In this document: piece by piece, positions 1 to 54,350 of the stretch
Layout: every line of letters starts with the position of its first letter
Numbering within the stretch: the stretch's first letter is position 1
Assembly: GCF_000186865.1 (NCBI RefSeq)
Contig: NW_008705562.1
Span: forward strand, 1,219,192-1,283,191
Direction: 5' to 3'
DNA length: 64,000 nucleotides
DNA from: Aureococcus anophagefferens
Taxonomy: Eukaryota > Sar > Pelagophyceae > Pelagomonadales > Pelagomonadaceae
Made by a program: the position numbers and the translations under genes
Notes under the pieces: model-generated
What the model saw: only the letters and a program-made list of their open reading frames with translations
The model's database searches: none
What the model was told of the DNA's origin: nothing

Positions 1-3000
1 GCCTCGGCGTCCGCGCCGATGGCCGCGTAGCGCACGATCGTCGCGGAGAGGGCGCTCGAACTCGCGGCGCAGAGCGCCGTCGGCACGCGCCAGGCGCGGC
101 CGGGGAAGGGCACGAGGCGCGGCGACGCCACGCTGAAGGCCGTCCAGTCGCGGCGCGCGCCCGACGCCTCGAACGCGTCGTCGATGGCCTCTCGCTCCCT
201 CGCCGCCTCCGCGGCGTCGAGCTTCTTCGCCTTGGCGGCGTCGACGGCGGCGCGCTTGCGCGCGTCGTAGGTCTCCGCGGCCTCCGCGCTTTTCGCCGCG
301 GCCTCCGCGGCCGTCTTCTCGCGCGGCGCGAAGTGCTGGTGGTAGAAGGACCGCGCGCGGCTCGCGTCCGCGACCTCGCCGGGCGAGGACGCGACGCAGG
401 TCGCGGCGCCCCAGGCGTAGAGCTCGTGGCGCGCCGTGAGGGCCGCGCTGTGGCGCCAGCCCGCGACGATCTGGGTCACGGGGCACTTCGCGAGCCGGCC
501 GCGGACGACCGCGTACGCGCTCCGGTCCTCGCGGTCCCCGACGCCGAGCTGGCCGTCGCCGTTGTGGCCGCAGGCCAAGACGACGCCCGACGCCGCGAGC
601 ACGAGCGCGTGGCGGCTGCCGCACGCGACGTCCGCGGCGCGCCGCAGGAACTTCTTCGCGAGCTCCGTCGCCGACGCGTTCGCCTTGGGCGTCGCGACGG
701 CCTTGCGCGTGAGCATCTCCGGCGCCCAGCGCCGCGCGCCGTCGCCGAGACCGAGCTGGCCCTTGTCGTTGTTGCCCCAGGCGAAGAGGTCGTGGCGCGT
801 GCCGACGCGCGTGACGACGACGGAGAACTCGAGGCCGCAGGCCACCTTCCAGGCGAAGCGCTTGCGGTGCGCGTCGAGGCCCCGCACGAGCGTCGGCGAC
901 GGCACGTCGTGGGCCGCGCGCCAGGCCGGCGACCGGAGCTCCGCGTCGCGGCCCGGCGACCGGCCGCCGTCGATGCCCAGGCACTCGCGCGCGCCCCAGG
1001 AGAAGACGACGCCCGGGTTCGCGACGCAGACGGCGAAGTGGCCGCCGCAGGCGACGGCGGCGACGCGCCGGCGGCTCAGGCCCCCCGCCTCCACCGCGCG
1101 CGGCGACCCGCGGCGCGGCAGGAGGTCGCCCAAACCGCACTGGCCGCGCCGGTTGTCGCCCCAGGCGAAGAGGCGCCCCCCGGCGCTCAGCGCGACGCAG
1201 AAGTCGGCCCCGGCGCTCAGCGCCGTGAAGGCCACGCGCGTGAAGCCCTTGGGCGCCGGCACGGACGGCTGGCCCGCGGCGCCCGGCTTCGCGCGGGGCG
1301 TCTCGAAGCCTCGGCCCGCGTACTGGGGCCCCGCGGCGCCGAGCGCGCGGCTCCCGCCGTGGGCGCTCACCTCCAGGTCCACCGTCGCCGGCGCCACCAC
1401 AAAGTCGCGGTGCGCCGGCGCGAGGACGTGCGCTTCGCCATCGTGCTTCGCGGCCGCCGCGGACCCCGGCGCGGGCCGGCCGAGCTGGCCGGCGTCGTCG
1501 AGCCCCCAGGTGTAGAGCTCGCCGCGGTCGCTCAGCGCCGCGCTGTGGCTCCGGCCCACGGCCACGTCCCCGAGGCGCCGGCCGCCCCGCCCGAGGTCGC
1601 GGCAGAGGCGCCCGAGCGTCCGCGCCCAGCCGTGCGGGTACGTGTCGTGCGCGTCCGACCTGGGCAGGACAAGAGAGAGATTCAACGTCGCTTCAACGTG
1701 GGTATTCCGCGCGCGCGCGTTCCAAAGAAAGACGTTCATGTCCGAGGCCGTTCCGAGAGATGATCGCTCGTCCAAAAATCAGCCGAAACGAGTGGAAAAC
1801 GGCCGAGAAAGGAGGCTTTGAAGTTGGGAATTTCGCTCTCTTGTGCTGCCCTGCGTCCGACGCCCTGGCGTCGACGTCGACGAGCTCCGCCCGGCTCGCG
1901 AAGCGCTGCGCCGCGAGCTTGGCCGCGCGGTTCGGCAGGGGCCGGCGCAGCGCGAACTCGAGCGCGTGGTGGCCGAGGTGGCGGCCCGCGCCGCGCTGCT
2001 CGCCCTTGCGGATCGTCGACGACCGGCACGCGTCGACGGGCGCGTCCGGGTCGCCCTTGGTGTCGTCGACGGCGTACTCGTTGGCCGTCGGCGAGCTCAG
2101 GTTCGTGTTGCTGCACTTGCAGTGCGCGACCGCGTCCGCGTCCCCGAAATGCTCCGCGAGCGTCAAAAACTCGCGCTCGCGGACGCAGCGCAGCGCGAAG
2201 CGCTCCGCGACGACCATCGCCGCGACGCGCCGTCGACGCGCGTCGCCGCGGCCCGCGGCGCCGCGGCCCATGCCCGCGAGCACCGTCGCGGCGAGCCGCG
2301 CGTCGAGCATCCAGAACCGGAGGAAGCGGCTCCGCGCCCACCGCTGCGCGACGACGGCCGCGCGCCGCAGCTGGCGGAAGCGCCGCACGACGAGGATGCG
2401 CTTCCAATGGGCGCCGAATTTCGTCGAGGCCCTGCGGAGCGCGCGCGCGCGTAAAGCGCGGCGCCACGCTTTCGCCGCGGCGTACGCGGGCCCGCCGGGG
2501 CTCCGCGAGTGGGACCCGCGCCACGCGCAGGCCAGCGTCGTCGCCGCCCGGCGCCGCAGGACCTTCAACCGTAAAATCCGCAGCACCTCGCCCACGATGA
2601 ACACGCGGAGCTTGTCCGCGTGGCGCTTCACGGCGCCCGCGCGCCGCCGGAGCACGAAGCCGCGCGCGAGCGCGGCCGCGCCCCTGGCCGCGAGCTTGAG
2701 CGTGGTACACCGCGCCTTGGCCCGCGTCGCGCGGCTCCAGCGCTGGAGCCGCACGGCCATGGCGCCCCGGCGGCGCGCGGCCGCGCGCCGGAGCTTCCGC
2801 CGCGCCAAGCCCGTGATCGCCGCGCCCGCGCGGCGGTGTTTTGTGATGTAGGCGCGCATGGGCGCGTACTTGACGAGGGCGACGACGAGCCCGAGGCCGT
2901 TGCGCACCTTGACGTAGACGCGGCGCTGCTCGCGCGCGCGCTGCATCGCGGCGAGCCGCGTCGCGCAATTCGCGAAGATCGCCGTCGCGTCGTCTAAACG

Positions 3001-5829
3001 CCGCTCGAGCGACGCCGCGAGCGGGCTCGACAGCATGACCAGCGTGCGCCCCAATTGGGCCTCGCCGCGCCGCGCCGCCTCCTTGGCCTCCGCCGCGAGG
3101 CCCGGGTCGCAGAGGAGCGCGTCGAGGAGCCGCTTCGCCCGCTCGCGGCGCTCGCCCGCGTCGTCGTCGGCGACGACGAGGGGGAACGCGCGGCTGTAGA
3201 CGCCGAGCCCCCGCGCGGCGATGGCGTACTTGGCGTAGAAGCGGTCGTGGGGCATGCGCCAGCGGAGGCCGATCTTCGTCAGCGTCGCGAACTCGGGCAC
3301 CGCGAAGCGGTCGAAGAGCTGCTTGCCGACGTAGCTCGGCTCGAAGAAGTCCCGGGCCAACTCCGGGTCCTTGTCGAAGAGGCGCTGGGGCGCCGCGCGC
3401 GTGCATAGCACGTGCGTCGCCAACGGGCGGCCCGTGCCCCGGCTCAGGCCGCCGAGCTGCGATAAACCGCCGTAGAGCGCGTCGAGCTGGCTCCGGAAGC
3501 TCGCGATCGCCGACGCGCGGCCCTGCTCCTTGGCGTGGACGAAGCGCACGGCGCCGCAGGCCGCGAGGTCGCCGAGGGTGAGCCAGGGGCAGGCCGCCTC
3601 GTCGACGTCGCACTCGGCGAACAGGGCCCGCACGAACGGCCGCGTCGACGTCTCGAGCGCGGCCACGGCCGCCGCCGGCGCGGCGACGCGCGCGCGCCGC
3701 AGGAGGTCGTGGACGTCGTAGGACACGTCGCCGCCCGTGTGCTTGACCGTGAAGGACGTCGCCGCGCGCTGGCGCCGGCCCGGCTCGAAGGACGGCGACG
3801 CGCCGTGCGCGGCGACGACGGCCGCGAGCGCGCGCGCGTCCGTCTCGCCGAGCGCGGCCGCGGACGCGTCCACCGTGCCCAACAAGCTCGCGGGGCCGCC
3901 CAGGAGCAGGTCCAGGACGTCGGCGTTGGTCTGGACCGCGGGGAACTTGGTCGTGGACACGTCGAGGCCCTCGTCGTCGTAGAGCTTGAGCTCGTCGGAA
4001 AAGGTCGTCTCCGCGTAGTAGGCGTGGTGCCGCTCCGCCGCGGCGTTGTGGAGCAGCTCGTCGAAGAAGTTGCGCCCCCCCGCGCCCTTGGCCGCGTCGT
4101 CGAAGCCGCACGCGTCGAGGACGTAGACGTCGGACGGGGCCCGCGCGGCCTCGCGGCACTCGCCCGACGCGCGCTTGACGACCCAGGTCACGAGGCGACC
4201 GTAGAGCGCCTTGATGAGGCCGTCGCGCGCTGTCTCGGCGTCGGAAGGCCTAGCGGGCACCCTCTTGCCGACGCCCGCGGACGACGCGCCGGACGCGACG
4301 TCCAAAACGCGGCAGAGGAACGCGTCGCGCAAAACGCCGCCGTCGACGCCCAGCAGCTCCGCGGCGTCGGCGGCGCGCGTCTTGCTCGCGGCCGTCTCGC
4401 GGTACTTGGCCTCGTCGCCGCCGCCGAACTCGACGTCGCCCAAAGCTAGGATCGCCGCTAAAAGGCCCGCGACGCCCTCGGCGAACGAGTCGCGCACGCC
4501 CGTCGGCCGTTTCGACTTGGCGTCGCCGTCGCGCGCGACGACGCCGTAGGCCGCGGAAAGAGCGGCCCAGTCCGCCGCGGCGTCGTCCGTCGCGTCCAAA
4601 AGCCGGTAGCCCGCCTTGTCCCTGGCGTCGCGGAGCCGGAGCGCCGCGCGCTCCGACGGCGACTCGACGCCGCCGGCGAGCCAGTGGAGCGCGTGGAAGT
4701 TGCCGTCGGCGGCGCCCTCGGCGTCGCCGGGCGACCGCGCGACGCGCGCGACCTCCAAGCCATAGATCTCGCAGGACCCGCCGGCCACCAAAGCCTCGCG
4801 GCGCGGGCCGGGCCGCACGGCGAGGCGGTACATCGTCGCGCCGCGGCTCGCGTTCGCGTTGCGGCCGCTCCGGGCGCAGGAAAAGGCCTCGACGAGCGTC
4901 GGCGTCGACAGCAGCTTCTTCGCCGCGCGCGCTTGAGATGATGAGAACCCTCTTGCCTCCGGGCCGGAGAAGAAGAGCGGGTTCGCCGCGCGGCCGAGCG
5001 GCGCGGCCCACGCCTGCGTCGCGTCGTCGCGCCGCGCGGCGACGAGCGCGTCCCCGCCGAGCCGCGACGTCGTCGGCCCCGCGGCCGCGACGCCGAGGAA
5101 GCTCGGGTCGCCGAAGGCGATCGCGGCGAACTCGAGTGCGAGCTTCGCGGACTCGGACTTGCCGCTGCCCGACTCGCCGACGAAGCTGAGCAGCTGCGGC
5201 GCGCGGAGCTCGAACGCGCGGCGGACCGCGTCCGCGACGGCGTCGTAGAGGTGGGGCTGCTCCGCCTCCGCGGCGTCGCCGGCCGGCGGCGGAAACCGGC
5301 CTTTGCGCCGGTCCGCGCCGGGCGTCCGGTACCGGGGCTTCGCGGCGCCGCCGGCGTCGTCCCGCGCGCCCGCGGCGCGCGGCCCGGACCGGCGCTGCAT
5401 CTGCAGCAGGCCGAAGTTCGACTCGCTCCGCGGCGCCCCGGGCCCGTTCGGGTTCAGGAAGACGAGGGGCCCGTCGCGGCGGCCCGCGTAGGTCCAGTAC
5501 TCGCCCGCGACGTGGCGGCCGTGCGCGGCCGAGACGACCGAAGGCGCGTTGCAGTGCGTCGCGCGCGCGAGCTCGCTCAGGTTCCTGCGCGACCCGCTGC
5601 GCAGGCGCGAGTTCGACGGGAGCACGTCGGCCTCCCTCTTCGCGATGGTCATCTTCGGCTCGTCCACCGTTTCCAAGGTCAGCTCGCCGCCGTTGCGCGC
5701 GACGACGCGGCACGGCACGTACTCGGGCCGGCCGCACGTGCCGCCGAGGCGCTTCTTGTAGAACTCGCCATCCGTGAGGGGGAAGGGGTTCTTGAGCCAC
5801 ACGAGGTTCGCCTCGGACGCGGCGTCCAT
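1..5829 (-). CDS. Unconventional myosin fused to C-terminal RCC1 repeats (3' end off the window)
   Basis: An actin-based motor joined to an RCC1-type beta-propeller. Exon 1 is 5829-1862 and exon 2 is 1659 to beyond base 1, separated by a family B introner. Visible protein is about 1875 residues. The head has the P-loop GESGSGKSES near residue 216, a switch I-like NANASRG, a divergent switch II (DACGFD for DIxGFE), and a converter region followed by arginine-rich IQ-like helices. After the intron, RCC1 blades recur, for example LFAWGDNRRGQCGLGD, LFAWGNNDKGQLGLGD and VLACGHNGDGQLGVGD. The degenerate switch regions suggest slow or altered ATPase activity (inference). It shares a 240-bp divergent promoter with the kinesin at 6070. 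I cannot assign a myosin class. The start is the first ATG of the open frame. Confidence 0.85.
1660..1853 (-). mobile_element. Introner family B, copy B1 (intron of the myosin gene)
   Basis: A 194-bp element flanked by the duplication CGTCCGAC (1652-1659 and 1854-1861). In gene sense it starts CAGGGCAGCACAAGAG and ends CTTGTCCTGCCCAG, so the ends are inverted repeats differing at position 2. The intron is 1861-1660 (202 nt): its GT is the start of the duplication and its AG closes the element. Removing it joins ARA-SDAHD in frame. Confidence 0.93.
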
Positions 5830-6069
5830 CGAGCTTGACGGCGTCCGATGGCAGCCACAGAGAGCAGCCTCACAGTTCCTGTTACGGCGCGCTGCGGGGG
5901 TTGTGATACGTTGACATAAAGATCATCACGGTCGCACGGGCAGCCCCTCTGATTCAACAAAGCGCCGCTTGAAAGCCGAGCGTCGAGCACCACTGTTAGC
6001 TCGCGCGCGCGCTCGGCGCCTCGCCGCCGACGCGTGCGCGTCGCGCGCCGCTGCGCCGGAGGCAGCGCC
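5830..6069. promoter_or_regulatory. Divergent promoter region, myosin and kinesin
   Basis: 240 bp between two start codons on opposite strands, locally richer in AT than the genes. It contains TACGTTGA at 5907-5914, an octamer also found upstream of the patatin gene and between CFAP91 and ALG12. No TATA box is evident. That both genes are co-regulated is inference. Confidence 0.5.
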
Positions 6070-9000: not shown

Positions 9001-11747
9001 GCCAAGGAGTGGGCCGCGTCCAAGGCGCGCATCGAGGATTTGGGGCGCCGCGAGGTCGACATGCAGCAGCGGCTCAACGAAGCGCTCAAGGCCAAGAGCG
9101 ACGCCCTCATCGCCGGCGGCCGCGCCGCCGAGGAGCACGCCAAGGTCTCCTCCGCCGTCGCCGCCATCAAGGCCGAGGTCGGCGTCTGGCACCGCCGCGC
9201 GGCCGAGGCGCAGGAGAAGACGCGGTCCGTCGAGGCCCAGCTCAAGGAGCTCCAGACCCACGCGCCCCCGGCCGTCGACGAGTCGGAGCGCGCCCGCCTC
9301 GGCGACATCGACGACGCCGACGTCGAGGAGACGCGCGCGAGGGCCGACGCCGCGGAGCGCGACCTCGCGGAAGTACGTGAAAACCACAAAAAGCGCGAGC
9401 GAGCGTCCGGGGACCTCGCCGGGCGCCTCGCGGCCCTCGACGCCGCGGGGCGCAAGGCCGACGAGGACTTGACGGCCAAGGCCGACGGCATCCGCCGCCT
9501 CGAGCGCGCGATCCGCGACGCGCACGGCCTCGCGGCCGCGCGCGCCGAGGCCTCGGCGAAAGCGCGGGAGAACCTCGACAAGCAGAAGCTCGCGCGCGCG
9601 GACCAGAAGCGCCGGCTCGACGAGGCCCACGCCGAGGCCGACGCCCTCGCCGCCGAGCTCAAGGCCTGCCGGCGGGCCACCGCGCGGCTCGTCGAGGAGA
9701 CGCACGACGCGCGGCGCACTGTGCCGAATTCAACCACTGGTTTGGGTGGTCCTGACCAAACTTCAGAATTCTCTAGCCTGGTCAAATCGAAGTCGATTCG
9801 GCTGATTTTTAGACGAATCGATTGCTCTCGTCGAGTTCTCGAAGCACGGCCGAAGAGATTTTGTCGAAACGGTCGCATACGCGCACATTGAAGTCGGGTT
9901 GAAGATTTGAATTCGGCACAGGCGGCGCGAGGAGCGCGAGCTGGACGCGGAGCACCGGCGCAAGGAGGCGGAGCTCCTGGCGTCGCGGTCCAACGAGGAC
10001 CTGCGCCAGGAGATGGAGACGCTGGGCGAGGCGCTCGCGGGCCTGCGGTCGCAGCCTGTGTGCACATCAACCACCGGTTTGGGACGTCCCGACGAAACTT
10101 CAGAATTCTCTCGCTCGGTCACATCGACGTCGATTCGGCTGAGTTTTGGACGAATCGATCGCTCTCGTCGAGTTCTCGAAGCACGGCCGAAGAGATTGCG
10201 TCGAAACTGTCGCGCACGCGCACATTGAAGTCGGGTTGAAGATTTGACGTCCACGCAGGTCGCAGCTCGCGCTCGCGGCGGGCGACGACTACGAGCTCGA
10301 GGGCGACGACGGCGAGCTCGACGAGTCCAAGGTGCTCGAGAAGGCGTTGGCGCCCCTGCGCGAGAAGCTCGATCTGACGTGTCATGAGACGAAGGCCCTC
10401 CAGGAGGAGGCGAACAGGCTCCGCGCGGAGCTCCGGGACACGGTGCACCTCGAGGCGGAGATCGACGCGCTGCAGGACGAGACGAGCCGCGTCGGCGCGA
10501 AGCGGCAGGCGGCGCTGGCCAAGCTCGCGTCGTCGAAGCAGCACATCTTCGCCCTCGAGGAGGCCAAGGCCGCCAAGGAGCGCGAGCGGACGCGCGCGGA
10601 GGCGCAGCTCGAGGCCGCGGAGCTCGAGGCGAGCCATCAGGCCGAGATCTTAAAACACGAGCAGGACAAGGCCGAGCGCTGGAAGGAGCAGACGGCGGAG
10701 AGCCTGCGGGACGCGGCGGCGGCGGAGGCGTCGAAGCACGCGGCGCTCGCGGCCATCGCGGACCTCGACCGCGCGGAGGCGGAGCGGTCCGCGCGCGCGG
10801 CCGCGGACGCGGGCGTCCCCGACGGCGATCTAGAGTTGGAGGCCATCAAGGGCGACTACCACGAGGCCATGGAGGCCTGGGCGGCGTCCCACGACTCGCT
10901 CCTCGTCAGCAAGCACGCGCGCGCGCGGACCGAGCGAGAGCGCGAGGCGAACGCCGCGGAGAAAACGGAGCTCGAGGCCAAATGGGCCGACGAGGCGCGC
11001 GCGCGGGCCCGGGAGCTCGACGCGCTCCAGAAGTCCCTCGACGAGAAGCGCGCGGAGCTCGGGCGCCTGCGGTCGACGCTCGGCGAGTTCGAGGCGCGCG
11101 CGGCCGCGCCCGAGGCCGCGCCGGCGCCGCCCGAGGAGCAGGCGAAGCTCGCGGCGCTCGCCAAGACCGTGGAGAGCGCCGCGGACCTCATCGACGACGC
11201 GCGGCGCCGCGACCTCGCGGACCAGCGCACGCTCGACGAGCTCGACCGGCGGACCGAGGCCGGCGCCGCGCGCAACGAGGCTTTGAAGGCCGAGCTCGGC
11301 GACCTCGAGGCCGAGCTCGCGGCCGCCGAGGCGGAGCTCGCGGAGTACCGCAAGACCGACGTCTACGAGGTCACGCGCGACGAGTACATCTCGACGCTCC
11401 GCGGGCCCGACGCCGCGACGCCCGCGCGCAAGCTGCCGACGCGGGCCGCGAAGCCGTCCGTCGCGTCCGTCCGCGCGACGCCGCGGCCCCGGCCCGCCGG
11501 CGGCCGCCGCAGCCGCGACTCGCCGCTCACCATCGACATGCTCCGCACGCCCAAGGCCCGCGAGGTCCACGAGTCGCCGCGCGAGAGCCCCCGGTCCAGC
11601 CGCCGCGCGTCGCCGCGCGACTCGCCGCGCGACTCGCCGCGCGACTCGCCGCCGACGCTGCCCCCGGCGCCGCGCGGCGTCGTCGACGACGAGGAGGAGA
11701 GCGGCTCCGACGACGGCTCCGTCGAGGGCGGCGACGGGGGCGTGTGA
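6070..11747 (+). CDS. Kinesin, CENP-E (kinesin-7)-like, with long coiled coil
   Basis: A plus-end microtubule motor, 1751 residues from exons 6070-9710, 9922-10047 and 10259-11747. The N-terminal motor begins VRVAVRIRPLNK and has the P-loop GQTSSGKT (about residue 92), switch I NANSSRSH and switch II DLAGSE, all intact. About 1200 residues of charged coiled coil follow, then a basic tail with SPR repeats (SPRDSPRDSPRDS) that could be proline-directed phosphorylation sites. N-terminal motor plus very long coil fits kinesin-7/CENP-E; kinesin-4 or -15 is less likely. Both introns are family A introners, and splicing them restores heptad-like sequence (DARREERELDAEH and GLRSQLALAAGD). The chosen ATG has a good context (gcgccATGg); an upstream GTG in frame is ignored. 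Confidence 0.9.
9719..9921 (+). mobile_element. Introner family A, copy A1 (kinesin intron 1)
   Basis: A 203-bp element with 15-bp perfect inverted ends CTGTGCCGAATTCAA and TTGAATTCGGCACAG. It is flanked by GCGGCGCA (9711-9718) and GCGGCGCG (9922-9929), a duplication with one mismatch. The frame-restoring intron is 9711-9921 (211 nt) with GC-AG ends: codon GC|G is rebuilt and the coiled coil reads through. Confidence 0.92.
10056..10258 (+). mobile_element. Introner family A, copy A2 (kinesin intron 2)
   Basis: A 203-bp element, clearly a sister of the A1 copy 126 exon bases upstream. Its ends are CTGTGTGCACATCAA and TTGACGTCCACGCAG (12 of 15 positions pair). The perfect 8-bp duplication GTCGCAGC lies at 10048-10055 and 10259-10266. 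The intron 10048-10258 (211 nt) has GT-AG ends, with GT from the duplication and AG from the element. Confidence 0.95.
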
Positions 11748-24812: not shown

Positions 24813-24879
24813 GCTTGACCCCTTGATAAAACGCCGATGTTTCCCTCTGCTTGACATTCAACCTTCGGGGCTGCCGACG

Positions 24880-25514: not shown

Positions 25515-27571
25515 CTAGAGGGGATTCCTCGTGATCTCCGTGATGCTCTCCGTGAGGGCCTTCTGCGCGGCGTCCGCGAGGTGCTTCTCCGCGTCGCGGT
25601 CCTCGCCCTTCTGCTGCATGAGCTCCACGGAGGGCGTGAGGAAGGACGCGACGAGGTCCTTGACGAAGGCGTCGCGCGCGACGCCCTCGGCGGCGTCGTT
25701 GACGACCCCCGCGGCGAGCGCGCTCGACTTGCCCCGCAGGCTGTCGGCCATGGCCGCGTTGAGGCCGTCGTCGCTCTGGAGCTCGACGATGGCCTGGCGC
25801 CGCGCGGCGTCGTCGATGGACGCCTCGAGGATCTCGTCCACAAAGGTCCGCGCCGCGCCGAGGTGCGCCGCCATGACCTGCTTGTAGACCTCGTCGGACC
25901 GGCCGCGGAGCCGCTCCTCGGCCTGGCGCCGGCCCGCCTCCTCGGCCTCGCGCTGCCGCCGCTCGTTGTCCGCGCGCTGCGCCAGAGCCTTGAGCCGCTC
26001 CTTCTCCTCGCGGCGCACGAGCTCCTTGGACAGAAAGTCGAGCATGGACGACGCCATCTCGCCCGCGATCGTCTCCATCGCCGCGCGCGCCACGGCCGCG
26101 CGGTTCTCCGCGGCCGCGACCTCCGCGCCCGCGCGCGCGTCCGCCGCCGCGTCGTCGTCCGTCTCCGCGGCCCTGGCCTCGTCCGCGGCCCGCAGCTCGC
26201 GGATGAGCTCGAGGCGCCGCTCCTTGCCCTCGTACATCTGGTTCTGCACCGCGCGGCCGCGGATCAGGCGCTGGAAGAGCTTGACGGCCATGTCGAAGAC
26301 CTCCGCGTCCTCGTCGCGCGGCTCGACGCGCGGCGTCGGCGGCCGCTCGGCCTTGGACACGCGCGTGCGCCAGGACGGTAGCAAGTCCTTCTTCGCCTTC
26401 TCGGGGTCCTCGGCGATCTCCTTCTTCGTCGCCAGGATCGTGTTCATCTTCAGCAGGTCCGCCGCGAGCTGCTGCTTGTGGCGGTCCTTGGACGTGCGCG
26501 CCGTCGCCTCGTTCTCGTTCTCCGGCTTCGTGACCTTGGTGGCCGTGAGGTGGCCCGGCAGGTTGTATTCCAAGGACGCGAGCACGCCGTGGTTGCCGAG
26601 GTCGGGCACGCGCCGCGTGACGTCGAAGACCTCGCCGTCCTTGTCGGGCCGCTGGCCGAGGCGCGCGATGGGCGCGTAGACGCGCGAGCTGTAGGTGCCG
26701 TACTCCGAGATGATGTCGCGGTTCCCGGACCGGCGCTTGGAGCCCGGCGGCTCCGACGCGGGCATCTGGAGCCGGCCGCGCGCCATCGACAGCTTCCGCA
26801 GCACCTTGATGCGCTGGCTCTGGATCTGCTCCACGGACCGGTCCCGCTCCTCGATCTGCCGCTGGCGCAGCGCCTCGACGCGCTGCTCCGCCAAAAATTC
26901 GTTGTCCTGGTCGCGGTCGACCAGCGCCTGGCGCAACAGATCCAGCCGCTCCTCGTGGGCCTCGTCCATCTCCCGCTGCCGCAGCCGGAACTCGCGCATC
27001 TCCTGGAGCTCCAGGAGCTTGCGCCGCAACCCCAAACTCGCCTCGTCCGTCGCCGGGGGCAGCGACGCTTCCAATTTGTGCTTTTTCTGCGCGTGCTCGA
27101 TCATCAGCACCTCCTGCTCGCCCGCGGGCAGCCCCCGCTCGTGGCTCAGGCCCTTCAGCATCAGGATCTGGGGCGACTCGCCCGGCGGGATGACGTACTC
27201 GGGCGAGTAGGGGTCCGTCTGCGCCTCGGACTCGCGGTACTTGGTCTGGACCGTCGCGTCGCGGACGCGCGACTCGGGCGCGTCGTCGAGGGGCGTGGCC
27301 TACAAAAAGGGGGGGTCGTCGGCGGGCGCGCGGCGCAAAAGTGCGACGCGGGCGGTCGTGCGAGCGGGTCCACCTCCGCCGTCGGCGCGAGGAGCACGCC
27401 CGGCGCCACCGCGTCGAGGTGGGGCACCATGGGGCGCTGGAAGAACTTGTAGCGCCCGGAGCCCGACATGGCGGCGGCGTCGAACTTGACCGCCGGCGCC
27501 TTGGGCCCGCCCGCCGTCGCCCACACGGGGTCGAAGTAGGCATCGTAGGCCCGCGACTCCGTGCGAGCCAT
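25515..27571 (-). CDS. CFAP91: Cilia and flagella associated protein 91 (MAATS1/AAT1)
   Basis: 660 residues from exons 27571-27374 and 27299-25515. CFAP91 is a structural axonemal protein of the calmodulin- and radial-spoke-associated complex, bridging spokes 2 and 3 and needed for flagellar beating. The hallmark N-terminal block is present: QTKYRESEAQTDPYSPEYV, then IPPGESPQILMLKGLSHERG and GLPAGEQEVLMIEHAQKKH. Long charged coiled coils and a VFDxAVKLFQRLIRGRAVQN segment follow. The single 74-nt intron (27373-27300) is conventional: GAG|GTGGAC donor and a CCCCCCCTTTTTGTAG acceptor, with no repeat features. It is head-to-head with ALG12. Confidence 0.9.
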
Positions 27572-39221: not shown

Positions 39222-41478
39222 ATGGCGTTCCGAGAGGAGGCGCTGCCCCTGCGCGGCGGTCCGCCGGCGGCGCCCGCGGCGCCGCCGCAGCGACGGCGAT
39301 GGCCGGCCTTGCTGGCCGCCGCCGGCCTCGGCGCGCTGGCGCTCGGCGGCGGCGTGCGACGAGCCACGTCTGAAACGCTGGCAACGACGAGCGGCCTGCG
39401 CCTGAGCGTGGCCAACGAGTACGGCGAGTGCACGACGGATCGCTACCCGTTCCTGCACGGCATCACGACCGCGGTCCTCGTCGAGCCCCACAAGTCGACG
39501 CGGCTCGCGGTCGCGCACCCGCAGCCCGGCGCGACGTACCGCTGGCACTTCCCCGACGCCGCGGCGGTGGAGGGAGAGACCGTCGCGACGGCCGTGCGGG
39601 CGACGTGGAAGCGCACGGGCGTCCACAAGCTCGTCGTGAGCGGGCCCGTGGACCGCGCCTTCGACGTCTACGTNNNNNNNNNNNNNNNNNNNNNNNNNNN
39701 NNNNNNNNNNNNNNNNNNNNNNNGAGACCGGCGGCTCACGGACCGCGACCGCCGCGCGTTCCTCGAGGCGTCCAAGGTCGTCTGGACGACGTCCACCGTC
39801 GACGGCCGGAAGCTCTACGGACCCCGCTACAAGGACATCAACCACCTGACGATCATCCACAACGACCTCGCGGGCAACTCCATCTGCGACTTCATCCACG
39901 GCAACACGGGCTACGCCTTCGCGAACGCGCACGCGGCGCTCAACAACATGCGCGAGCCGGCGTCCTGCGGCGATGTTCGAGAGATGTCGACCGGGGAAAC
40001 GACGGACGATCGTCACCGCCGCGCGTCGCAGGCTCGAGCAGTCGCTCCAGGCCATCGACCCGGCCATCGCTTTGCCCTACTGGGACTACTCCCTCGACTT
40101 CTGGGAGCAGGTCGACTCGCGGGACGGCGTCGCGACCTTCTCGAACGAGTCGGACCTCCTCCGGCTCTGGGACTCGGAGATCTGGTCCGCCAAGTACTTC
40201 GGGCGCGCGGACGCGGACACGGGCGTCATCGTCGACGGCGCCTGGGCGCGCACGAAGGTGCCCGTGATCTCGGAGGAGCTGCTCAACGCCTCGGGCTTCT
40301 CGGGCCACTTCCGCGACCACGGCTTCGCGTCGTGCTACGGCCAGGACGAAGACGTCTGCGAGGCGCCGTGGACCGCGGGCTTCCGCGAGGGCATCGTCCT
40401 CAACCCGTCGGGCGCGACGGAGCCGAAAACGGGCACGTCCGAGCGCCACGTCGGCAACTCGTTCGGCCTCCTGCGGTCGCCGTGGAACATGCGCGCGGAG
40501 CCGGCCGTCGTCCGGAGCCGCAAGAGCTGCGGGCGGAAGAACGCCCTCCAGTTCCCGGACTGCACGTCGTTCATCAACCAGCAGCACGACTTCGACACCT
40601 TCGAAAACTACGTCGTCAACCTCCAGGTGTCGCCGCACGGCGCGGTCCACGTCTGGGCCGGCGGCGCCTTCGGCCGGTGCTCGGAGACCTACGCGGCCCT
40701 CCACGACGTCGTCCCCGACGCGGCCCTCGTCGACGCCTTCAAGATCTCCGCCGCGAACATCCAGAAGAGCCTCTGGATGGAGGGCCTCCGCGCGTGCCCC
40801 GCGCGCGGCGCGTGCGCGGGCCTCGGCCAGGACGAATGCGCGTGCCACGTGCTCGAGGTCGACGCCATGGCGCGCAACGCGTCGCGGAACGTGAGCGCGT
40901 CCTGGACCTGGAACCAGGTCCTCCAGATCGTCTTCAGCACCGTCCACGTGAACCACGAGGTCAACGCGCGCGCCTACCTCAACGCGCTGCCCGACGCCGC
41001 GAAGCTGAAGATCCTCAAGGCCGTCTCCGTCGACGTGCTCACGGGCGACATGATCGGCTCGAACTCGCCCTACGACATCGCCTTCTTCGCGACGCACGCG
41101 TCCGTGGAGCGCCTCTGGCAGCGCAAGGCCCTCGCGGGGAACATGAGCGACATGGCCTGGCCCCAGCAGGACGGCCGGTCCGGCGCGCCCCTCTGCCCGG
41201 GCCAGAAGGCCGGCTACAGACTCGTCTGGTTCGACTACGCGCTCGACGACGACGACGCCGTCTCGTCGGACCTCACGAACGTCGAGTGGCGCGACATGCT
41301 CAACCCGGCGAACCCGGCCTACGCGACCCACATCCCCTACGTCTACGAGAACTTCGTCTGGGAGCACTGCATGAACTACATCGCCCTCAACCCGGACCAG
41401 GCCGGCGTCATCGACGCGACGCTCATGCGGCCGGACCAGTGGGTCTGGCAGAACACGGAGGACCGGACCGCGCGATAG
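39222..41478 (+). CDS. Tyrosinase / polyphenol oxidase-like binuclear copper protein
   Basis: About 724 residues from exons 39222-39949 and 40032-41478; a 50-N gap falls inside exon 1. A basic N-terminus and one hydrophobic span (ALLAAAGLGALALGGGV) suggest a type II membrane anchor. The copper A region runs IIHNDLAGNSICDFIHGN and then FANAHAAL, joined across the intron to LEQSLQAIDPAIALPYWDY, the tyrosinase LPYWDY signature. The copper B region has SPHGAVHVWAGGAFG and IAFFATHASVERLWQRK. Tyrosinases oxidise phenols to quinones; the exact substrate is unknown. The intron is a family C introner. It converges on the RING-Sel1 gene with 50 bp between stops. Confidence 0.85.
39674..39723. other. 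Assembly gap (50 N)
   Basis: Run of N inside tyrosinase exon 1. The reading frame happens to continue in phase across it; its true length is unknown. Confidence 0.99.
39958..40031 (+). mobile_element. Introner family C, copy C1 (tyrosinase intron)
   Basis: A 74-bp element beginning CGGCGTCCTGCGGC and ending GCGTCGCAG. It is flanked by GCGCGAGC (39950-39957) and GCTCGAGC (40032-40039), one mismatch in eight. The intron 39950-40031 (82 nt, GC-AG) yields LNNM-LEQSLQ, as expected for tyrosinases. A GT (39962) 12 bases downstream would also keep frame and add four residues. The same element is in the convergent RING-Sel1 gene. Confidence 0.85.
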
Positions 41479-41528: not shown

Positions 41529-42800
41529 TTACTCCGCGCGGTGCAGCAGGACCCGCCGCCGGATCTTCGCCGCGAGGCGCGCGCGCCACGTCCGCGGCGC
41601 CGCGGGGTGCGGCCGCGTCGCCATGGGCGTCGTGCTCTTCGGGTTCGGCCGCCGCGCGCCGCCGGGGAAGACGCGCCACTTGGCGACGAGGTCCCGCAGG
41701 GGCCCGCGCGTGAGCTGCGCGAGCGCGCGGCGCGCGCCCTCGTCGCCCTGGTCCGCGGCCGCGCGGTAGAACCGCGCGGCCTCGAGCTTGTCGACGGCGA
41801 CGCCGACGCCCGTCTCGTGGGCGACCTACGCGTGCGCGAAGCGTCGACGCGGGCGTCGGGCCGCGCGCGCGCGGACGAGGCGACGACGGGCGGGGATCCC
41901 GGATGGACGCGGGAGACGCTGACGCCCATGTTGTACTGCGCCTGCGCGAGCCCCCGCGCGGCCGCGCGCCGGTACCAGCCGACGGCCGCGGCGACGTCCG
42001 CCTCGCAGCCCCAGCCCTGCTCGAACATGAAGCCGAGGTTGTTCATCGCCTACGACGGTGACGACGTCTCGTCGTGTTCCCACCCGACATCTCTCGAAAA
42101 TCGTCGGCGGCCACAGGACGCCGTTCATCGCCGGCGCGACGTGCCGCCCCTCGGGCCGCGACGCGATGAGGTCCTTGAGGCGCTGCACGGACACGGACAG
42201 CGGCACGAAGAGGCTCGCGCGGCACGCGGGGCACCGCTGGAGCTTCTGCTCCAGGAGCGGGCGGCAGGCGCTGCAGAAGGTCGTGCCGCACTTGTAGCAC
42301 ATGCCGACCTCGCGGCCGGGCGCCGCGTGGTCGTCCGGGTTGTCGAGGCAGATGAGGCACCGCGTCGACGCGTCGTCCGGCTCGGGCGCGGCGGGCCGCC
42401 GCGGCGGGCCCGACGACGGCGAGATGATGAGCGGGAAGACGCCCCGGTGCCGCCGCTTCGACAGCGACGACGGCAGGGGCGACCGCCGCGGCGACCGCGG
42501 CGGCCGCGGCGCGACGTGGACGACGGCGGGCTGGAGCTTCGACGGGGGGGCCGGGACGACGCCCGTGAGGCCGTCGTCGGCGTCGTCGACGGCGCCCATG
42601 CCGCGTCGCTCCGACGACGGCGCGGCAAGGTTCCGGACGAGCTGCGGGCGCGGCGATGCGACGACGACGCGGCGCCTCGCTACAGCGGCGATGCCATCAT
42701 CGATCAGAGCGCTAGGCGTCGTGGGCTGCGCCCCAACGTGGGAATCCGTTGCAACGGATGAGAGATCTTCACCTTGGAGTTTTTTTGCGAGGCTGCCCAT
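41529..42800 (-). CDS. RING finger - Sel1 repeat protein
   Basis: About 363 residues from exons 42800-42132, 42049-41924 and 41825-41529. The N-terminal 150 residues are Pro/Arg-rich and disordered. A RING-like finger follows: CLICLDN ... CYKCGTTFCSAC ... CPACRASL (about 153-200). Sel1 repeats then span the introns: AMNNLGFMFEQGWGCEADVA, AVGWYRRAAARGLAQAQYNMG and VDKLEAARFYRAAADQGDEGA. Intron 1 is a family C introner. Intron 2 (41923-41826, 98 nt, GT-AG) shows no duplication and looks conventional. Related to the MYND-RING-Sel1 gene at 11909 but lacking MYND. Starts 59 bp from the divergent gelsolin start. Confidence 0.8.
42050..42123 (-). mobile_element. Introner family C, copy C2 (RING-Sel1 intron 1)
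   Basis: A 74-bp element in gene sense starting CGGCGTCCTGTGGC, containing TTCGAGAGATGTCG as in C1, and ending TCACCGTCGTAG. The perfect duplication GCGATGAA (extended GGCGATGAAC) flanks it at 42124-42131 and 42042-42049. Intron 42131-42050 is 82 nt, the same length as C1, with GC-AG ends; it restores VAPAMNNLGFM. An in-frame GT lies 12 bases inside. Confidence 0.92.
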
Positions 42801-45800: not shown

Positions 45801-46323
45801 CCGCGCGGCGCGCGCCTGTGTGGAAATCAACCACTGGTTTGGGGGGTCCCCACCAAACTTCAGAACTCTCTATCTCGGTCAAATCGACGTCGATTCGGCT
45901 GATTTTTGGACGCATCGATTGCTCTCGTCGAGTTCTCCGAAGCACAGCAGAAAGCCTCGCGTCGAAACGGTCGCATACGCGCACATTGAAGTCGGGTTGA
46001 AGATTTGAGTTCCACGCAGGCGCGCGCGGCGCCTCGCGGCGCACTACGTCGCCGCGACGCGGGGCGACCCGCTGCCCATCAAGGTCCAGGCCCAGGGCGG
46101 CGAGGACCCCCACTTCAAGAGCCTGTTCCACGGCTGGGCCGACCGGCCCGCGGACGCGCACCGCGCGCTCGCCCTCGACCGGCGGCGGTCCGCGGCCCTC
46201 GAGCGCGACGACCGCGTCGGCCGCGTCGTCGACGACGACGACGACGACGACGAGTCCGACGACGACGGCGACGAGCCCCGGCGGCCGCCGGCGCGGAAGC
46301 GGCGGAACTCGTGCGGGTTTTAA
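42860..46323 (+). CDS. Gelsolin/villin-type six-repeat actin-binding protein
   Basis: 1083 residues from exons 42860-45807 and 46020-46323. Six gelsolin-like repeats can be traced, each with a hydrophobic-W strand: VFAWRVG...VFHWLG, LYAWRG, VYAWRG, FLFFWRG, MWVWVG and VFLWLG. The first keeps the classical phrase AAAYKAVELNRYLGG then REVEGSESPEF. Gelsolins sever and cap actin filaments under Ca2+ control. Acidic linkers separate repeats, and the tail is Asp-rich then basic (DDDDDDDES ... RKRRNSCGF). No villin headpiece. The family A introner splits repeat six; removing it joins KKAARR-ARRLAAHYVAATRG and leads to FKSLFHGW, the usual end of a terminal gelsolin repeat. Confidence 0.87.
45816..46019 (+). 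mobile_element. Introner family A, copy A3 (gelsolin intron)
   Basis: A 204-bp element, ends CTGTGTGGAAATCAA and TTGAGTTCCACGCAG (13 of 15 pair), with a perfect duplication GCGCGCGC at 45808-45815 and 46020-46027. Intron 45808-46019 (212 nt) is GC-AG. A GT at 45820 would keep frame and add four residues, so the donor used is uncertain. Confidence 0.93.
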
Positions 46324-46390
46324 TCTTTGCGGGAGGCGTAAGTTGAACGACAACTTGCATTCAAATTCGTTGAATTGCCAAGGCGTCGGC

Positions 46391-48114
46391 ATGACATTCT
46401 TCTCCTCCTCCTTCGCAGCCACCCTGATGACTGCGCCGGGCGCGCTGGACGACGCCATCGTCCTCAAACTCGCCGGCGTCTTCCTCCTCCTTGGAATCGC
46501 CTGCCTCGCGTCCGTGGGCCGCCGGCGGCCGGGGAAGGCCTGGGTCAAGGACGCGCCGTTCCTCGAGCTCATGCGCCACTACGGCCCGGGCACGATCTTG
46601 GACTACCACGCGCGCTACGGGCGCGAGTGCCACCCGCGGTGCTGGTCCCTGAAGATCCCGCTCGACCCGCGCATCATCGCGACGGTGAACGCGGACGTCG
46701 TGCGCCACGTGCTCGTCGACAAGTTCCCAAACTACGAGAAGGGGCCGCAGTGGCGCGCGGCGTTCGACGATTTATTGGGCACGGGCATCTTCAACGCCGA
46801 CGGCCACCTCTGGCGCAAGCAGCGCAAGGTGTCGAGCCACGAGTTTTCGGTCAAGTCGATGCGCGACTTCATGTTCGACATCTTCGCGAATCACGCGCGC
46901 GAGATCGTGACGCTAGCCGGGGACTCGGCGGGCGCGGTGGACGCGCAGGAGCTCTTCGCGCAGTACACGCTCCAGAGCATCGGGCAGATCGGCTTCGGGG
47001 TGGACCTGGGCGCGCTGCGGGGGCCGGAGGGCGCGGCGGTCGCCGCGGACTTCGGCGACGCGTTCAACGCGGCGACGCAGCTGTCGGGCGACCGCTTCGT
47101 GGACCCGCTCTGGCGCCTGAAGCGCTTCCTCGGCGTCGGCTCGGAGCGGCGCCTCGCGGACGCCATCGCGCGCGTGCGCGCGTTCTCGCTGGGCGTCGTC
47201 GCGGACCGGCGGTCGGAGAAGGACGCGGATCTCAAGGCGAAGCGGGATCTCCTGAGCCGCTTCATGGCCCACCAGGACACGTCGAAGGAGTTCGCGTTCA
47301 CGGACGAGGAGCTCCACTTCGCCGTCATCAACTTCGTTCTGGCGGGGCGCGACACGACGGCGAACCAGTTGACGTGGCTCTTGTACGAGTGCTGCCGCCG
47401 CCCGGAGGTCGTCGCGGCCATCCGCGCGGAGTCGGACGCGTTGGGCAACCGCGTCGACTACGAGGCGGTGGGGAAGAGGGTGTACTTGAAGGCCGCGCTA
47501 ACCAGGGCAGCACAAGAGAGCGAAATTCCCAACTTCAAAGGCTCCGATCTCGGCCGTTTTCCACTCGTTTCGGCTGATTTTTGGACGAGCGATCATCTCT
47601 CGGAACGGTCTCGAAGCGTGGATGTGTTTTCCGGAACGCGCGCGCGCGGAACACTCACGTTGAAGCGACGTTGGATCACTCTTGTGCTGCCCAGGCGCTG
47701 ACGGAGACGCTCCGACTGTACCCGTCGGTGCCGACGGATTTCAAGACGGCGCTGAAGGACGACGTCCTGCCCGACGGCACGGGCATCCTGCGGGGCGAGC
47801 GCGTCATGTTCGCGACCTGGGCCATGGGGAGGATGGAGGAGTACTGGGACGACCCCCTGGCCTTCGACCCGGGCCGCTTCCTCGAGGACGGGAAGTTCCT
47901 CTTCCCGGACGCGTGCAAGATGCCCGCGTTCCTCGCGGGGCCGCGGACCTGCCTCGGCAAGGACGTCGCCTACCTCGGCACCGCGGTGCTGGTGGCGTCG
48001 CTGTTGGACACGTTCGACGTGGCCTACGCGGGCGACGCCGACCCCGTCTACGACACGGGCCTGACCATGTGGGCCGCGGGGCCCGTGCCCATCGCCTTCA
48101 CGCCGCGGCGGTAA
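46391..48114 (+). CDS. Cytochrome P450 monooxygenase
   Basis: 507 residues from exons 46391-47494 and 47695-48114. An N-terminal hydrophobic anchor (IVLKLAGVFLLLGIACLASV) suggests ER. Landmarks in order: helix C HLWRKQRK, helix I oxygen-binding AGRDTTANQ, K-helix ETLR (split by the intron just upstream, ALT-ETLRLYP), and heme-binding FLAGPRTCLGKD with the axial cysteine. The sequence resembles CYP86/CYP704-type fatty acid omega-hydroxylases (FPNYEKGPQW, LRLYPSVPTDFK), but substrate is not certain. The intron is a family B introner with an obligatory GC donor. Starts 67 bp after the gelsolin stop on the same strand. Confidence 0.92.
47503..47694 (+). mobile_element. Introner family B, copy B2 (P450 intron)
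   Basis: A 192-bp element with ends CAGGGCAGCACAAGAG and CTCTTGTGCTGCCCAG, flanked by GCGCTAAC (47495-47502) and GCGCTGAC (47695-47702). Intron 47495-47694 is 200 nt, GC-AG. There is no GT in the first bases that could replace it, so this is the clearest GC donor of the set. Confidence 0.94.
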
Positions 48115-48153
48115 CTCATCTTATCACATATTCCGCCGGCGGGAAATGTTATG

Positions 48154-49503: not shown

Positions 49504-49612
49504 GCAACGCTGCAAAGCGGACTGTTAGTTTGTGTGAGGAGCGCGGCTCGAGATGGCTGCAACGCTGCAAAGCGGATCTTGGTTGGTGTGAGGAGCGCGG
49601 CTCGAGATGGCT
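49503..49612. repeat. 55-bp tandem duplication in the divergent promoter
   Basis: Units 49503-49557 and 49558-49612 share TGCAACGCTGCAAAGCGGA and GTGAGGAGCGCGGCTCGAGA. The first unit includes the start codon of the PhnN-NRK fusion. The armadillo gene starts 87 bp beyond. Confidence 0.8.
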
Positions 49613-49698
49613 GCCATAATCGCTGAGCGCTGAGGTAAATCGATGTTGTTGAATGTGCACCCAGGGGGAAACGTCGGCGTTTCATCAAGGGGTCAAGC

Positions 49699-50406
49699 AT
49701 GGCGGAGATCGAGGGGCTGGTCCGCGCCTTGCGCGAGGGCGACGATGATGCGAAGGCGGCGGCGGCGGCGGCGCTGAGCGAGCTGGTGCGCGACTGCGAC
49801 GCCGGAACGCGCGGCAAACGGGTCCGGATCCGCGAGGCCGGCGGCATCCCGCCGCTCGTCCAGCTCGTGCGCGACGGGAGCGCGGAGGCCAAAACCCAGG
49901 CCGCAGCGGCGCTGGCCAACCTCACGCTCACCTACACCGAGGCCACCAACCGGCGACTGGTCGGTGCAGCTGGCGCGACCTCGCCGCTCATCGACCTCCT
50001 GCGCGACGGTAGCGCGGAGGCCAAATTATGGGCCGCGAGCGCGCTGCGCAACTTGGCGTGCGAAAACGACAACAAGATGCTGATCACCGAGGCCGGCGGT
50101 GTCCCGCTATTCGTCCAGCTCCTGCGCGACGGGTGCGCTAAGGGCAAACTCAAGGCCAGCGCGGCACTGAGCAGCCTCGCGCTCAACAACGACGCCGGCG
50201 CGGTCGCGGTCGCGGTGGCCGTCGGCCTCGAGGCGCTCGTCGAGCTCGCGCGGCACGGCCGCGTGATTGTCAACGAGGGGTGGCTCGTGTGGAGTGCGGA
50301 CGTCCCCGCCAAGCGCAAGGCCGCGCTGGTCGTCGCCGCCCTGCTCGACCGCGACGGCCGCCGGCTCCCGCGCGAGATCAAGGCCCTCATCGGGCCCTAT
50401 CTCTAG
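49699..50406 (+). CDS. Armadillo-repeat protein, copy 2
   Basis: 235 residues, about five ARM repeats (AGGIPPLVQLVRDGSAEAK, TSPLIDLLRDGSAEAKLW, AGGVPLFVQLLRDG). One repeat longer than its paralogue at 24225-24812. Both begin MAEIEGLVRALR, share the leader ATCAAGGGGTCAAGC before ATG, and end IGPYL followed by CTCTAGGACGCATCG. They are members of one duplicated family; further copies in the genome are likely. Partner and role unknown. Confidence 0.82.
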   Translation: MAEIEGLVRALREGDDDAKAAAAAALSELVRDCDAGTRGKRVRIREAGGIPPLVQLVRDGSAEAKTQAAAALANLTLTYTEATNRRLVGAAGATSPLIDLLRDGSAEAKLWAASALRNLACENDNKMLITEAGGVPLFVQLLRDGCAKGKLKASAALSSLALNNDAGAVAVAVAVGLEALVELARHGRVIVNEGWLVWSADVPAKRKAALVVAALLDRDGRRLPREIKALIGPYL

Positions 50407-50451
50407 GACGCATCGCTAGTAAAAGCGAGAGATCGAGATGAACGACTGCCA

Positions 50452-52225: not shown

Positions 52226-52513
52226 CGCGCTCGCGGCAACAAAAATGGCGAGGTTTTGCTTGCCACAACCACGGCCTGTGGCGCAGCGCTCTCGGCCTGC
52301 AGGACGCCCGCTAACTCGAGCGTCTGGTCGACCTCCACTCCGCGTCGCTGCCGTCGCTGCGTCGTCGAGGCCCCGAACGCCCCCGGCTCGCCGCCCCCGC
52401 CCTCGCGTGCCCCCGGGACCGCGCGGCCCGCGGGCGCCGCCGGGCCCGCGCCGCCGCCCCGGGACCTTTCCCCGGCCTCCGCAAGCGCCCCCGCCGGCGC
52501 GCCGCGCTCGACC

Positions 52514-54350
52514 ATGTCGGCGTCGCTCGTCGCCCACCGGTTCCGGACGCACAAGCGGCTCGGCGCCGGGTCCTTCGGGGAGATCTTCGTCGGCAGCGAC
52601 GTGAACACGGGCATGCGCGTCGCGATGAAGTTCGAGAAGCACGGTTTGCGGTGCCCGCAGCTGCGCCACGAGTACAAGGTCTACCGGGAGCTCCAGGGCT
52701 GCCGGGGCGTGTGCAAGGTCCAGTACTACGGCACGCACAACAATTTTAACGTCATGATCCTCGACCTGCTCGGCCCGTCGCTCGAGGAGCTCTTCACGAA
52801 GTGCGGCCGCCGGTTCTCGCTCAAGACGACGCTCAAGCTCGCGGACCAGATGCTCGAGCGCTGCGAGGCGCTCCACGGGCGCCACCTCATCCACCGCGAC
52901 ATCAAGCCGGCGAACTTCACCATGGGCGACGCGACGACGTCGCCCATGGTCTACTGCATCGACTTTGGGCTCTCGAAGCGGTTCCGGAACCCGCACACGC
53001 TCCAGCACATCCCCCACCGCGTCGGCAAGTCGCTCACGGGCACGCCGCGCTACGCGTCCATCTCGAACCACCTCGGCATCGAGCAGAGCCGCCGCGACGA
53101 CCTCGAGGCCATCGGCTACGTGCTCGTCTATTTCGCCAAGGGCCGGCTGCCGTGGCAGGGCCTCAAGGCCAAGAGCGCGCACAAGAAGTACAAGCTCATC
53201 CTCGACAAGAAGCAGGAGATCTCCATCGCCCAGCTCTGCCACGGCTGCCCGGCCCAGTTCGCCGAGTACCTGTCCTACTGCCGGTCGCTGAAATTCGACG
53301 CGTCGCCGAACGTCGCGTACCTCCGGCAGGGCAGGAAATGAGTGATTCAAGTTCGCTTCAACGTGAGTTTTCCGCGCGCGCGCGTTCCGGAAACAGCATC
53401 CACGCGTCGAGAGCGCTCCGAGAAATGATTGCTCGTCCAAAAATTAGCCGAAACGAGTGGGAAACGGCCGAGATATGAGCCTCCAAAGTTGGAAATTTCG
53501 CACTCTTCTCCTGCCCAGGTACCTCCGGCGCCTCTTCCGAGACCTCTACGTCCAGAGCGGCTACGACATCAACCACCTCCAGTCCAACGACTGGGACTGG
53601 ATGGTGCCCGGCGCGGGCGTCGACGCGAGCCCGCGCGCCGCGACCGCCGCGCCGGGCCAGCCCGCGGCGCCGACGGGCGGCGCCGCGCCCGCCGCGGTCC
53701 AGTCGGGCGACGCCGCGGTCCAGTCGAAGCGCGTCGTGTCCCAGGGCATGCGGCCCCAGTCCGCCGGCGCCGAGCGGCCGAAGTCCGCCGCCGCCGCCGC
53801 CGCGTCGAGCCGCGCCGACTTCTCGTCCGCCGCGTTCGCGTCGTCGAACGCGCCGCGGACGTCGTCCGCGCGGTCCGGCGGCGGCGCGCCCGCGGGCGGC
53901 CGCGACGTCTTCCTCCGCGACGGCGGGCCCTCCGCCCAGGAGGCGGCGAAGTTCGCCTACGACCACCGCTACCGCCGGCCCAAGACCGCGTCGAACGCGC
54001 GGGAGGCCGGCGACGACGGCGGCGGCCGCGACGGCGGCGTCGACCGGTCGCGCGCCTGGGGGTCCCACGCCCGCGCCGAGCCGCCCCACGGCGGCGGCGC
54101 GCGACGAGACCGGCCCGCGTCCGCCGGCGCCGCCGCCGTCGGCGGCGCGCAGTTCAAGGGCGCGACGTCGTCCAAGTCCGCGCACCACGTCTCCGAGCGC
54201 GGCGGCGGCCGCGGCCAGGGCGCCGGCGACGACGGCGCCCACGTCGTCGCGGGGGCCCGCTCCATGATGGGCCTCGCCCGCGCGCGGTCCATGAAGACGA
54301 GCTCCACGGGCGCCACGGGCTCCCGCCCCCGCACGTCGTCCCGCGGCTAG
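52514..54350 (+). CDS. Casein kinase 1 family protein kinase
   Basis: 544 residues from exons 52514-53316 and 53519-54350. Kinase domain in residues 1-290: glycine loop LGAGSFGEIFVG, catalytic HRDIKPANF, IDFGLSKRF for the DFG, and the CK1 phrase TPRYASISNHLGIEQSRRDD in place of APE. The intron falls in the C-lobe helix: FDASPNVA-YLRRLFRDLYV, matching the CK1 YLRxLF block. The remaining 250 residues are Ala/Ser/Gly/Arg-rich and disordered, likely for localisation or autoinhibition. CK1 kinases prefer primed or acidic sites and act in clock, trafficking and ciliary control. The intron is a family B introner in inverted body orientation. Confidence 0.93.
53327..53518 (-). mobile_element. Introner family B, copy B3, body inverted relative to the gene (CK1 intron)
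   Basis: A 192-bp element whose body is antisense to the host gene, unlike B1 and B2. Duplication GTACCTCCGG (53317-53326 and 53519-53528). Intron 53317-53518, 202 nt, GT-AG. Despite the inversion, the gene-sense right end is still CTGCCCAG and the left end CAGGGCAG. Without splicing, translation would stop at 53339-53341. Confidence 0.94.

Follow-up and report, generated by a model that had tools for sequence, protein, structure and literature searches.

Eight introns in a stretch of the Aureococcus anophagefferens genome (64,000 bases, C2:1219192-1283191, hereafter the window) are, with a probability of about 0.94 as judged from the DNA sequence, introners of DNA-transposon origin, which borrow the donor from the interrupted gene and carry a built-in acceptor. 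Such introners would be short non-autonomous DNA transposons, mobilized by a transposase acting in trans, that turned into spliceosomal introns upon insertion. The insertion would duplicate 8 bp of the gene, the left duplication copy on the coding strand would give the 5' splice site if it starts with GT or GC, and the last bases of the element itself would give the AG acceptor. Splicing would take out one duplication copy together with the element, so that the codons are rebuilt exactly, and insertions without GT or GC at the start of the duplication would mostly be lost from coding sequence.

The eight introns had been delimited in an initial annotation of the window, and re-examination of all eight segments confirmed their coordinates, as well as the element sizes of 203–204 bp (introns at 9711, 10048 and 45808), 192–194 bp (1660, 47495 and 53317) and 74 bp (39950 and 42050). 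The three size classes, A, B and C of that annotation, are named below by element length as F203, F192 and F74, respectively.

1660..1861, minus strand: F192 introner-intron of the myosin-like/RCC1-repeat gene; element 1660-1853, intronic duplication copy 1854-1861 (GTCGGACG), exonic copy 1652-1659 (8/8); GT-AG
9711..9921, plus strand: first F203 introner-intron of the kinesin gene; duplication copy 9711-9718 (7/8), element 9719-9921; GC-AG
10048..10258, plus strand: second F203 introner-intron of the same kinesin gene; duplication copy 10048-10055 (8/8), element 10056-10258; GT-AG
39950..40031, plus strand: F74 introner-intron of the tyrosinase-domain gene; duplication copy 39950-39957 (7/8), element 39958-40031; GC-AG
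42050..42131, minus strand: F74 introner-intron of the Sel1-repeat gene; element 42050-42123, intronic duplication copy 42124-42131, exonic copy 42042-42049 (8/8); GC-AG
45808..46019, plus strand: F203 introner-intron of a long gene; duplication copy 45808-45815 (8/8), element 45816-46019; GC-AG
47495..47694, plus strand: F192 introner-intron of the cytochrome P450 gene; duplication copy 47495-47502 (7/8), element 47503-47694; GC-AG
53317..53518, plus strand: F192 introner-intron in mirror form, its body running against the casein kinase 1 (CK1) gene; duplication copy 53317-53324 (8/8) or 53317-53326, element to 53518; GT-AG

As had been proposed, each intron consists of a target duplication copy and an element ending in AG. 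Comparison of the first eight bases of the intron with the first eight of the next exon revealed 8/8 matches in five introns and 7/8 in three (n = 8); at 53317 the match extends to 11 bases, which makes an 8-bp duplication indistinguishable from a 10-bp one. The division of the donors into GT (3/8; 1660, 10048 and 53317) and GC (5/8; 9711, 39950, 42050, 45808 and 47495) is absent from the initial annotation. A blastn search of the window with elements of the three families matched these eight places and no other.

The introns are 202, 211, 211, 82, 82, 212, 200 and 202 bases long, none of these lengths being divisible by 3, and in seven of the eight the joined frame is open and the retained reading leads to a stop or a frame shift. 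The host proteins are one with RCC1 repeats (Pfam) and a myosin-like part (by eye), a kinesin-like, a tyrosinase-domain and a Sel1-repeat protein, a long protein, cytochrome P450 and CK1. The joins were said to restore conserved protein blocks, and homologues bear this out for P450, tyrosinase and CK1. In the case of the kinesin-like protein (by eye), the evidence is a single open frame of 1,790 amino acids across both joins; the join at 10048 rests on this full frame because its 300-base flank takes in the first kinesin intron.

Public protein records (P-numbers) agree with the P450 join (YLKA^ALTETLR) on both sides, and P0121 (98%) and P0123 (84%) cross it uninterrupted. The same two-sided agreement was found for the tyrosinase join (NNM^LEQSLQ), across which P0242–P0250, P0252 and P0253 run with zero inserted residues in the window protein, and for the CK1 join (NVA^YLRRLF), which is crossed by P0002 (100%), P0004–P0006 and P0009. 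The CK1 and P450 joins thus exist as contiguous protein in two near-identical records, P0002 and P0121.

Introner copies in the genome and their predicted exact excision

In the assembly of 49,050,692 bases (86 contigs), the F192 core pattern has 2,095 matches and the F203 core pattern 1,543 (up to three mismatches allowed in both cases), while the reversed-pattern controls have 0 each. At least 31 matches were obtained for F74, a lower bound from a blastn search with one diverged query. Genome-wide, F192 and F203 copies together thus occur about every 13.5 kb, compared with eight introners in the 64 kb of the window. Many similar introns at unrelated positions of one genome are a hallmark of introners.

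For further analysis, 124 full copies (67 F192, 42 F203 and 15 F74) were collected from the window and from fetched genomic loci (L-numbers) that had been picked via family matches and are therefore a non-random sample; 31 partial copies, three copies at edges and five duplicates were left out. A codon model derived from the window sequence (GC content 71.1%, GC at third codon positions 94%) assigned the flanks to a coding strand and frame without the use of splice sites.

The duplications of the 109 F192 and F203 copies match at 8/8 positions in 91, at 7/8 in 16 and at 5/8 in two, and the borders of the window introns agree with this (all eight at 7/8 or better); F74, with 8/8 in four of its 15 copies, is weaker in this respect. 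When one duplication copy was removed exactly together with the element, the codon score exceeded that of removals one base longer or shorter in 63/67 F192, 40/42 F203 and 12/15 F74 copies, i.e., in 115 of the 124 (chance expectation, 1/3), and keeping the element scored better in none of the 124. The frames of the left and right flanks agree in 111 copies (62/67 F192, 37/42 F203 and 12/15 F74). Exact restoration of the coding sequence is thus found in the sample as well as in the homologue alignments of three genes. A confidently coding context was found for 98 of the 109 F192 and F203 copies, compared with 687 of 1000 random window points (p = 7 × 10−7).

Origin of the donor site

Donor statistics are based on 97 confident F192 and F203 copies; one more confident copy was excluded (duplication match 5/8). 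The exonic duplication copy starts with GC in 47 copies, GT in 47, GA in two and GG in one. The donor is accordingly GY (GC or GT) in 94 of the 97, compared with 20% GC plus GT among the dinucleotides of the flanking exons (p = 3 × 10−61), and the first base is G in all 97. One splice site is thus borrowed and the other carried, the element presenting a CAG end in 61/63 confident copies of F192 and 35/35 of F203. Of 776 positions compared between the exonic and intronic duplication copies, 14 differ, and one of these differences is an exonic GC paired with an intronic GT. At two loci, L020 and L105, the context is clearly coding and the element has borrowed a GA donor; these may be either GA-AG introns or non-functional copies.

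No donor consensus past GY was visible by eye in the base counts. Relative to GT, and per available site, GC was kept at 0.51 and 0.10 in the two F192 forms described below and at 0.28 and 0.18 in the two F203 orientations, whereas GA and GG were kept at most at 0.05 times the GT rate. The use of GC differs between the two F192 forms (24 GC to 13 GT vs. 6 to 16, p = 0.007), but this was one of three such tests and no conclusion is drawn from it. Intron phases 0/1/2 are 29/0/19 for GT and 17/13/16 for GC donors, in agreement with the expectation from exons (p = 0.47 and 0.91, respectively); pooled GY phases depart mildly from expectation (p = 0.03), with GT over-represented.

A GY start of the duplication could reflect a target preference of the transposase and not selection by splicing. 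Such a preference would account for the invariant first G and for the excess of copies in coding context over random window points, but an element with symmetric ends and an 8-bp target should bias both ends of the duplication. When the final two bases of the duplication were examined for the mirror-image dinucleotide RC, 27 of the 97 copies conformed, compared with 21.5% expected (p = 0.14). Moreover, F203, which has AG at both termini, occurs in both orientations (20 sense, 15 antisense), and GY is on the coding-strand 5' side in all 35 confident copies. Since the far end is unbiased, and since the ends of F203 are alike and yet GY always lies 5' on the coding strand, the filter would be splicing rather than targeting, and a target preference is regarded as quite unlikely. 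Ordinary insertions of miniature inverted-repeat transposable elements (MITEs) that break decaying genes and stay unspliced would agree with the public proteins P0008, P0010, P0241 and P0257, all of which read into an element. Given the frame restoration upon exact removal in 115/124 copies, the agreement of flank frames in 111/124 and the coding-strand donor bias in 94/97, this explanation is highly improbable. Next to no credence can be given to copying of the introns by reverse splicing or RNA-mediated intron transposition without a DNA transposase; it would produce many near-identical introns at unrelated sites, but F192 and F203 have 8-bp duplications and terminal inverted repeats, and the donor is not part of the element.

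Several observations weigh against the interpretation of the segments as introners. The borrowed donor is GA or GG in 3/97 copies, exact excision is not favoured in 9/124, and the duplications of F74 are imperfect in 11/15. Four public proteins read into the element, P0010 and P0008 at the CK1 site and P0257 and P0241 at the tyrosinase site; unspliced reading of genomic sequence explains them, as failed splicing would too. The contiguous records P0002 and P0121 may come from intronless alleles rather than from cDNA. In addition, the mobilizing transposase was not identified in genome searches with the hAT-dimer profile and a terminus pattern. The hAT dimer domain (Pfam) has four weak hits in the genome (22–24 bits), none tied to introner ends. 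Two of these, L010 (C1:943540) and L011 (C13:599794), lie in a 5.4-kb block that is 99.2% identical between the loci, and the block was set aside as a candidate because no terminal repeats with an 8-bp duplication were recognized in it. The search for an F192 terminus with a foreign interior, which covers the interiors in part, gave five matches that by eye are one-base variants of the ordinary right end. Spread by viruses was also considered and rejected: the shared core pattern had 0 exact matches in viral contigs, in one scan that may lack entries close to the host.

Acceptor ends and relations of the element families

The built-in acceptor differs between the families. F203 would function in either orientation, as it has AG at both termini (CTG...CAG): the CAG end is on the coding strand in 35/35 confident copies, and the other end has it too in 29/35. 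F192, with AG at one end, exists in two mirror forms, and F74 would function in a single orientation. Sense-body F192 copies read CA...AG in 34 of 39 cases, and antisense-body copies read CT...TG in 20 of 24, which is again CA...AG on the strand of the gene. The exceptions are a CG free end (three sense, two antisense), shifted ends (two sense and one antisense, the latter being the window intron at 53317), and one antisense call with sense-type ends and a weak coding score (L032). Genome-wide, full-length F192 copies with intact repeats comprise 995 with one acceptor, six with two and none without, counted with patterns that do not cover ends with a different second base (CG, for example). 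The body is inverted, by eye, in 31 of 100 one-acceptor copies listed. Among the six two-acceptor loci, three were read, and the two with a clear coding strand each have a GC donor on that strand.

The consensus bodies of the two F192 forms are identical, and the difference is confined to the outer ~17 bp. This would fit an origin of the mirror form through inversion of the body between the inverted repeats of the element, maybe repeatedly; a single such event would not move the donor side, the CA end or the AG end. Among the 23 antisense copies with clean ends, the left end is CT in 22, and the right end is CA in 20, CG in two and CT in none; 18 of the 24 antisense copies come from loci fetched for the CT left end, for which the right end was not a criterion. 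On the copy tree the orientation label needs six changes (5–7 in bootstraps; shuffled mean, ~19.5), at least two of which are forced by supported branches, but the tree is poorly resolved (7/64 inner branches supported), L032 combines an antisense call with sense-type ends, and the inversion breakpoints cannot be placed. Independent CA to CT point changes at opposite ends of an acceptor-less ancestor fit as well and, starting from a CA/CA ancestor, are equally costly, but a search for CA/CA copies with intact repeats gave none. We lean to the inversion, to which slightly less than an even chance is assigned, since the two ends differ jointly.

A broader proposal is that F192 is an intron-making transposon existing in two mirror forms with one acceptor each, generated by internal inversion, and that the borrowed donor, which requires hardly more than GY and is GC in half of the cases, would for this reason be specified chiefly by the element, e.g., by RNA pairing of the inverted repeats, and not by U1 pairing. 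Taken as a whole, this proposal is tentative and rather doubtful. When one intron each of F192 and F203 was folded as RNA, the ends paired in both (stability z-scores, −2.06 and −0.75), and two F74 introns gave −0.12 and −1.41; with such low overall fold stability, a role of the end-pairing stem is conjectural. The search for U1 small nuclear RNA (RF00003) returned nothing here or in the control genomes, and so it is uninformative, and an Rfam scan of the window gave 0 families.

The proposal of three families in the initial annotation holds by size and needs one change with regard to lineages. F192 and F203 align collinearly over the full length around a common core, despite their different termini (z = 8.6 relative to mononucleotide shuffles), compared with z = 1.8 for the reverse strand. 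F74 showed no clear relation to either (z up to 2.0). At this sensitivity, the homology of F192 and F203 means that the eight introners of the window belong to two lineages, with F192 in two mirror forms. F74 (67–81 bp in the sampled copies) has at best weak terminal repeats, as judged from the two window copies, and a single orientation in 12/12 confident copies, and together with its imperfect duplications this would fit an older family.

Gene models, known introners and the window

P0010, named as A. anophagefferens CK1 (99% over 74%), ends in YLRQGRK, which is the read-through of the window into the element at 53317, and so that A. anophagefferens record carries the same insertion at the same site. 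P0008 departs from the CK1 frame at that point too, continuing through an F192 element in another frame. At the site of the tyrosinase introner, P0257 and P0241 read through the F74 element. In P0122, named as A. anophagefferens P450 (93%), nine residues are missing just before the GC-donor join. From these comparisons, the named Aureococcus models of CK1 (P0010) and P450 (P0122) appear to be wrong at the introners.

The introner mechanism is already known in this host. Passages of PMC9860276 and PMC9481584 describe Aureococcus introners, in support of the statement to that effect in the initial annotation. In the former (Gozashti et al. 2022), introners are described, Aureococcus included, that borrow their donors and possess terminal repeats, with GC accounting for as much as 50% of the donors in a family, and the latter, a Pelagomonas paper, cites introners of ~210 bp in A. 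anophagefferens, a length similar to that of F192 and F203 (~200 bp). A passage of PMC7789003 terms Aureococcus splice motifs 'canonical', in contrast to the 47/97 GC donors found here. Amoebophrya introners, as described there, resemble those of the window in having inverted and direct repeats at ends that can pair in RNA, but differ in their highly variable splice motifs and direct repeats of 3–5 nt, compared with GY-AG and 8-bp duplications here. As far as the description in PMC9860276 goes, the pelagophyte introner family 4 of Aureococcus sp. (TARA_AOS_82_MAG_00129; example 3289-3365, 77 bp, 8-bp duplication) is near F74 in size; it brings both splice sites along and lengthens the mRNA by 12 bp, whereas the F74 tyrosinase join adds nothing relative to homologues. 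The donor tolerance figures, the mirror forms and the shared ancestry of F192 and F203 were not found in the parts of the introner literature consulted, with Huff, Zilberman and Roy 2016 outside the comparison, and no priority is claimed for them.

Transposons of the hAT superfamily make 8-bp target duplications and have CA-G type termini at both ends. MITEs of this superfamily share the 8-bp duplication with the introners, and the outer end of F192, CAGGG, is alike, but CT begins the acceptor end of F192 and, in most F203 copies, both termini. Huff, Zilberman and Roy reportedly found in 2016 that A. anophagefferens introners carry one splice site and take the other from duplicated gene sequence, and that the phase bias follows the borrowed splice site.

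Two further introns were noted in the window:

27300..27373, minus strand: conventional intron, GT...CCCCCCCTTTTTGTAG; without target duplication
41826..41923, minus strand: second intron of the Sel1-repeat gene, GT-AG; without target duplication

Both were held to be conventional, which agrees with the lack of a duplication and of any similarity to the introner families; the genome was not searched for copies of either. Among other features, the gene at 3-5922 fuses a myosin-head-like part (by eye) to a run of RCC1 repeats (Pfam), and the kinesin exon that separates the two introners (9922-10047, 126 bases) is about nucleosome size. Two repeat-protein genes in opposite orientation, 24228-24857 and 49639-50403, have armadillo-type repeats by eye, and their arms are 72–85% complementary over several hundred bases.

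The window sequence and the genome-wide sample support the view of the initial annotation that most introns of the window came from DNA transposition. In this long-contig assembly, transposition would be the source of eight of the 10 introns noted in the window, which was not scanned exhaustively for introns, and of thousands genome-wide. To the known mechanism the analysis adds the looseness of the borrowed donor and an acceptor that may be built in at either end of the element. The rules are countable: GT donors survive well, GC donors at 0.1–0.5 times that rate per available site, and GA and GG donors hardly at all, with the acceptor held in the element, and the coding-strand bias would come from selection. 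Standard Aureococcus gene models may also go wrong at such introns, since around half of them begin with GC.

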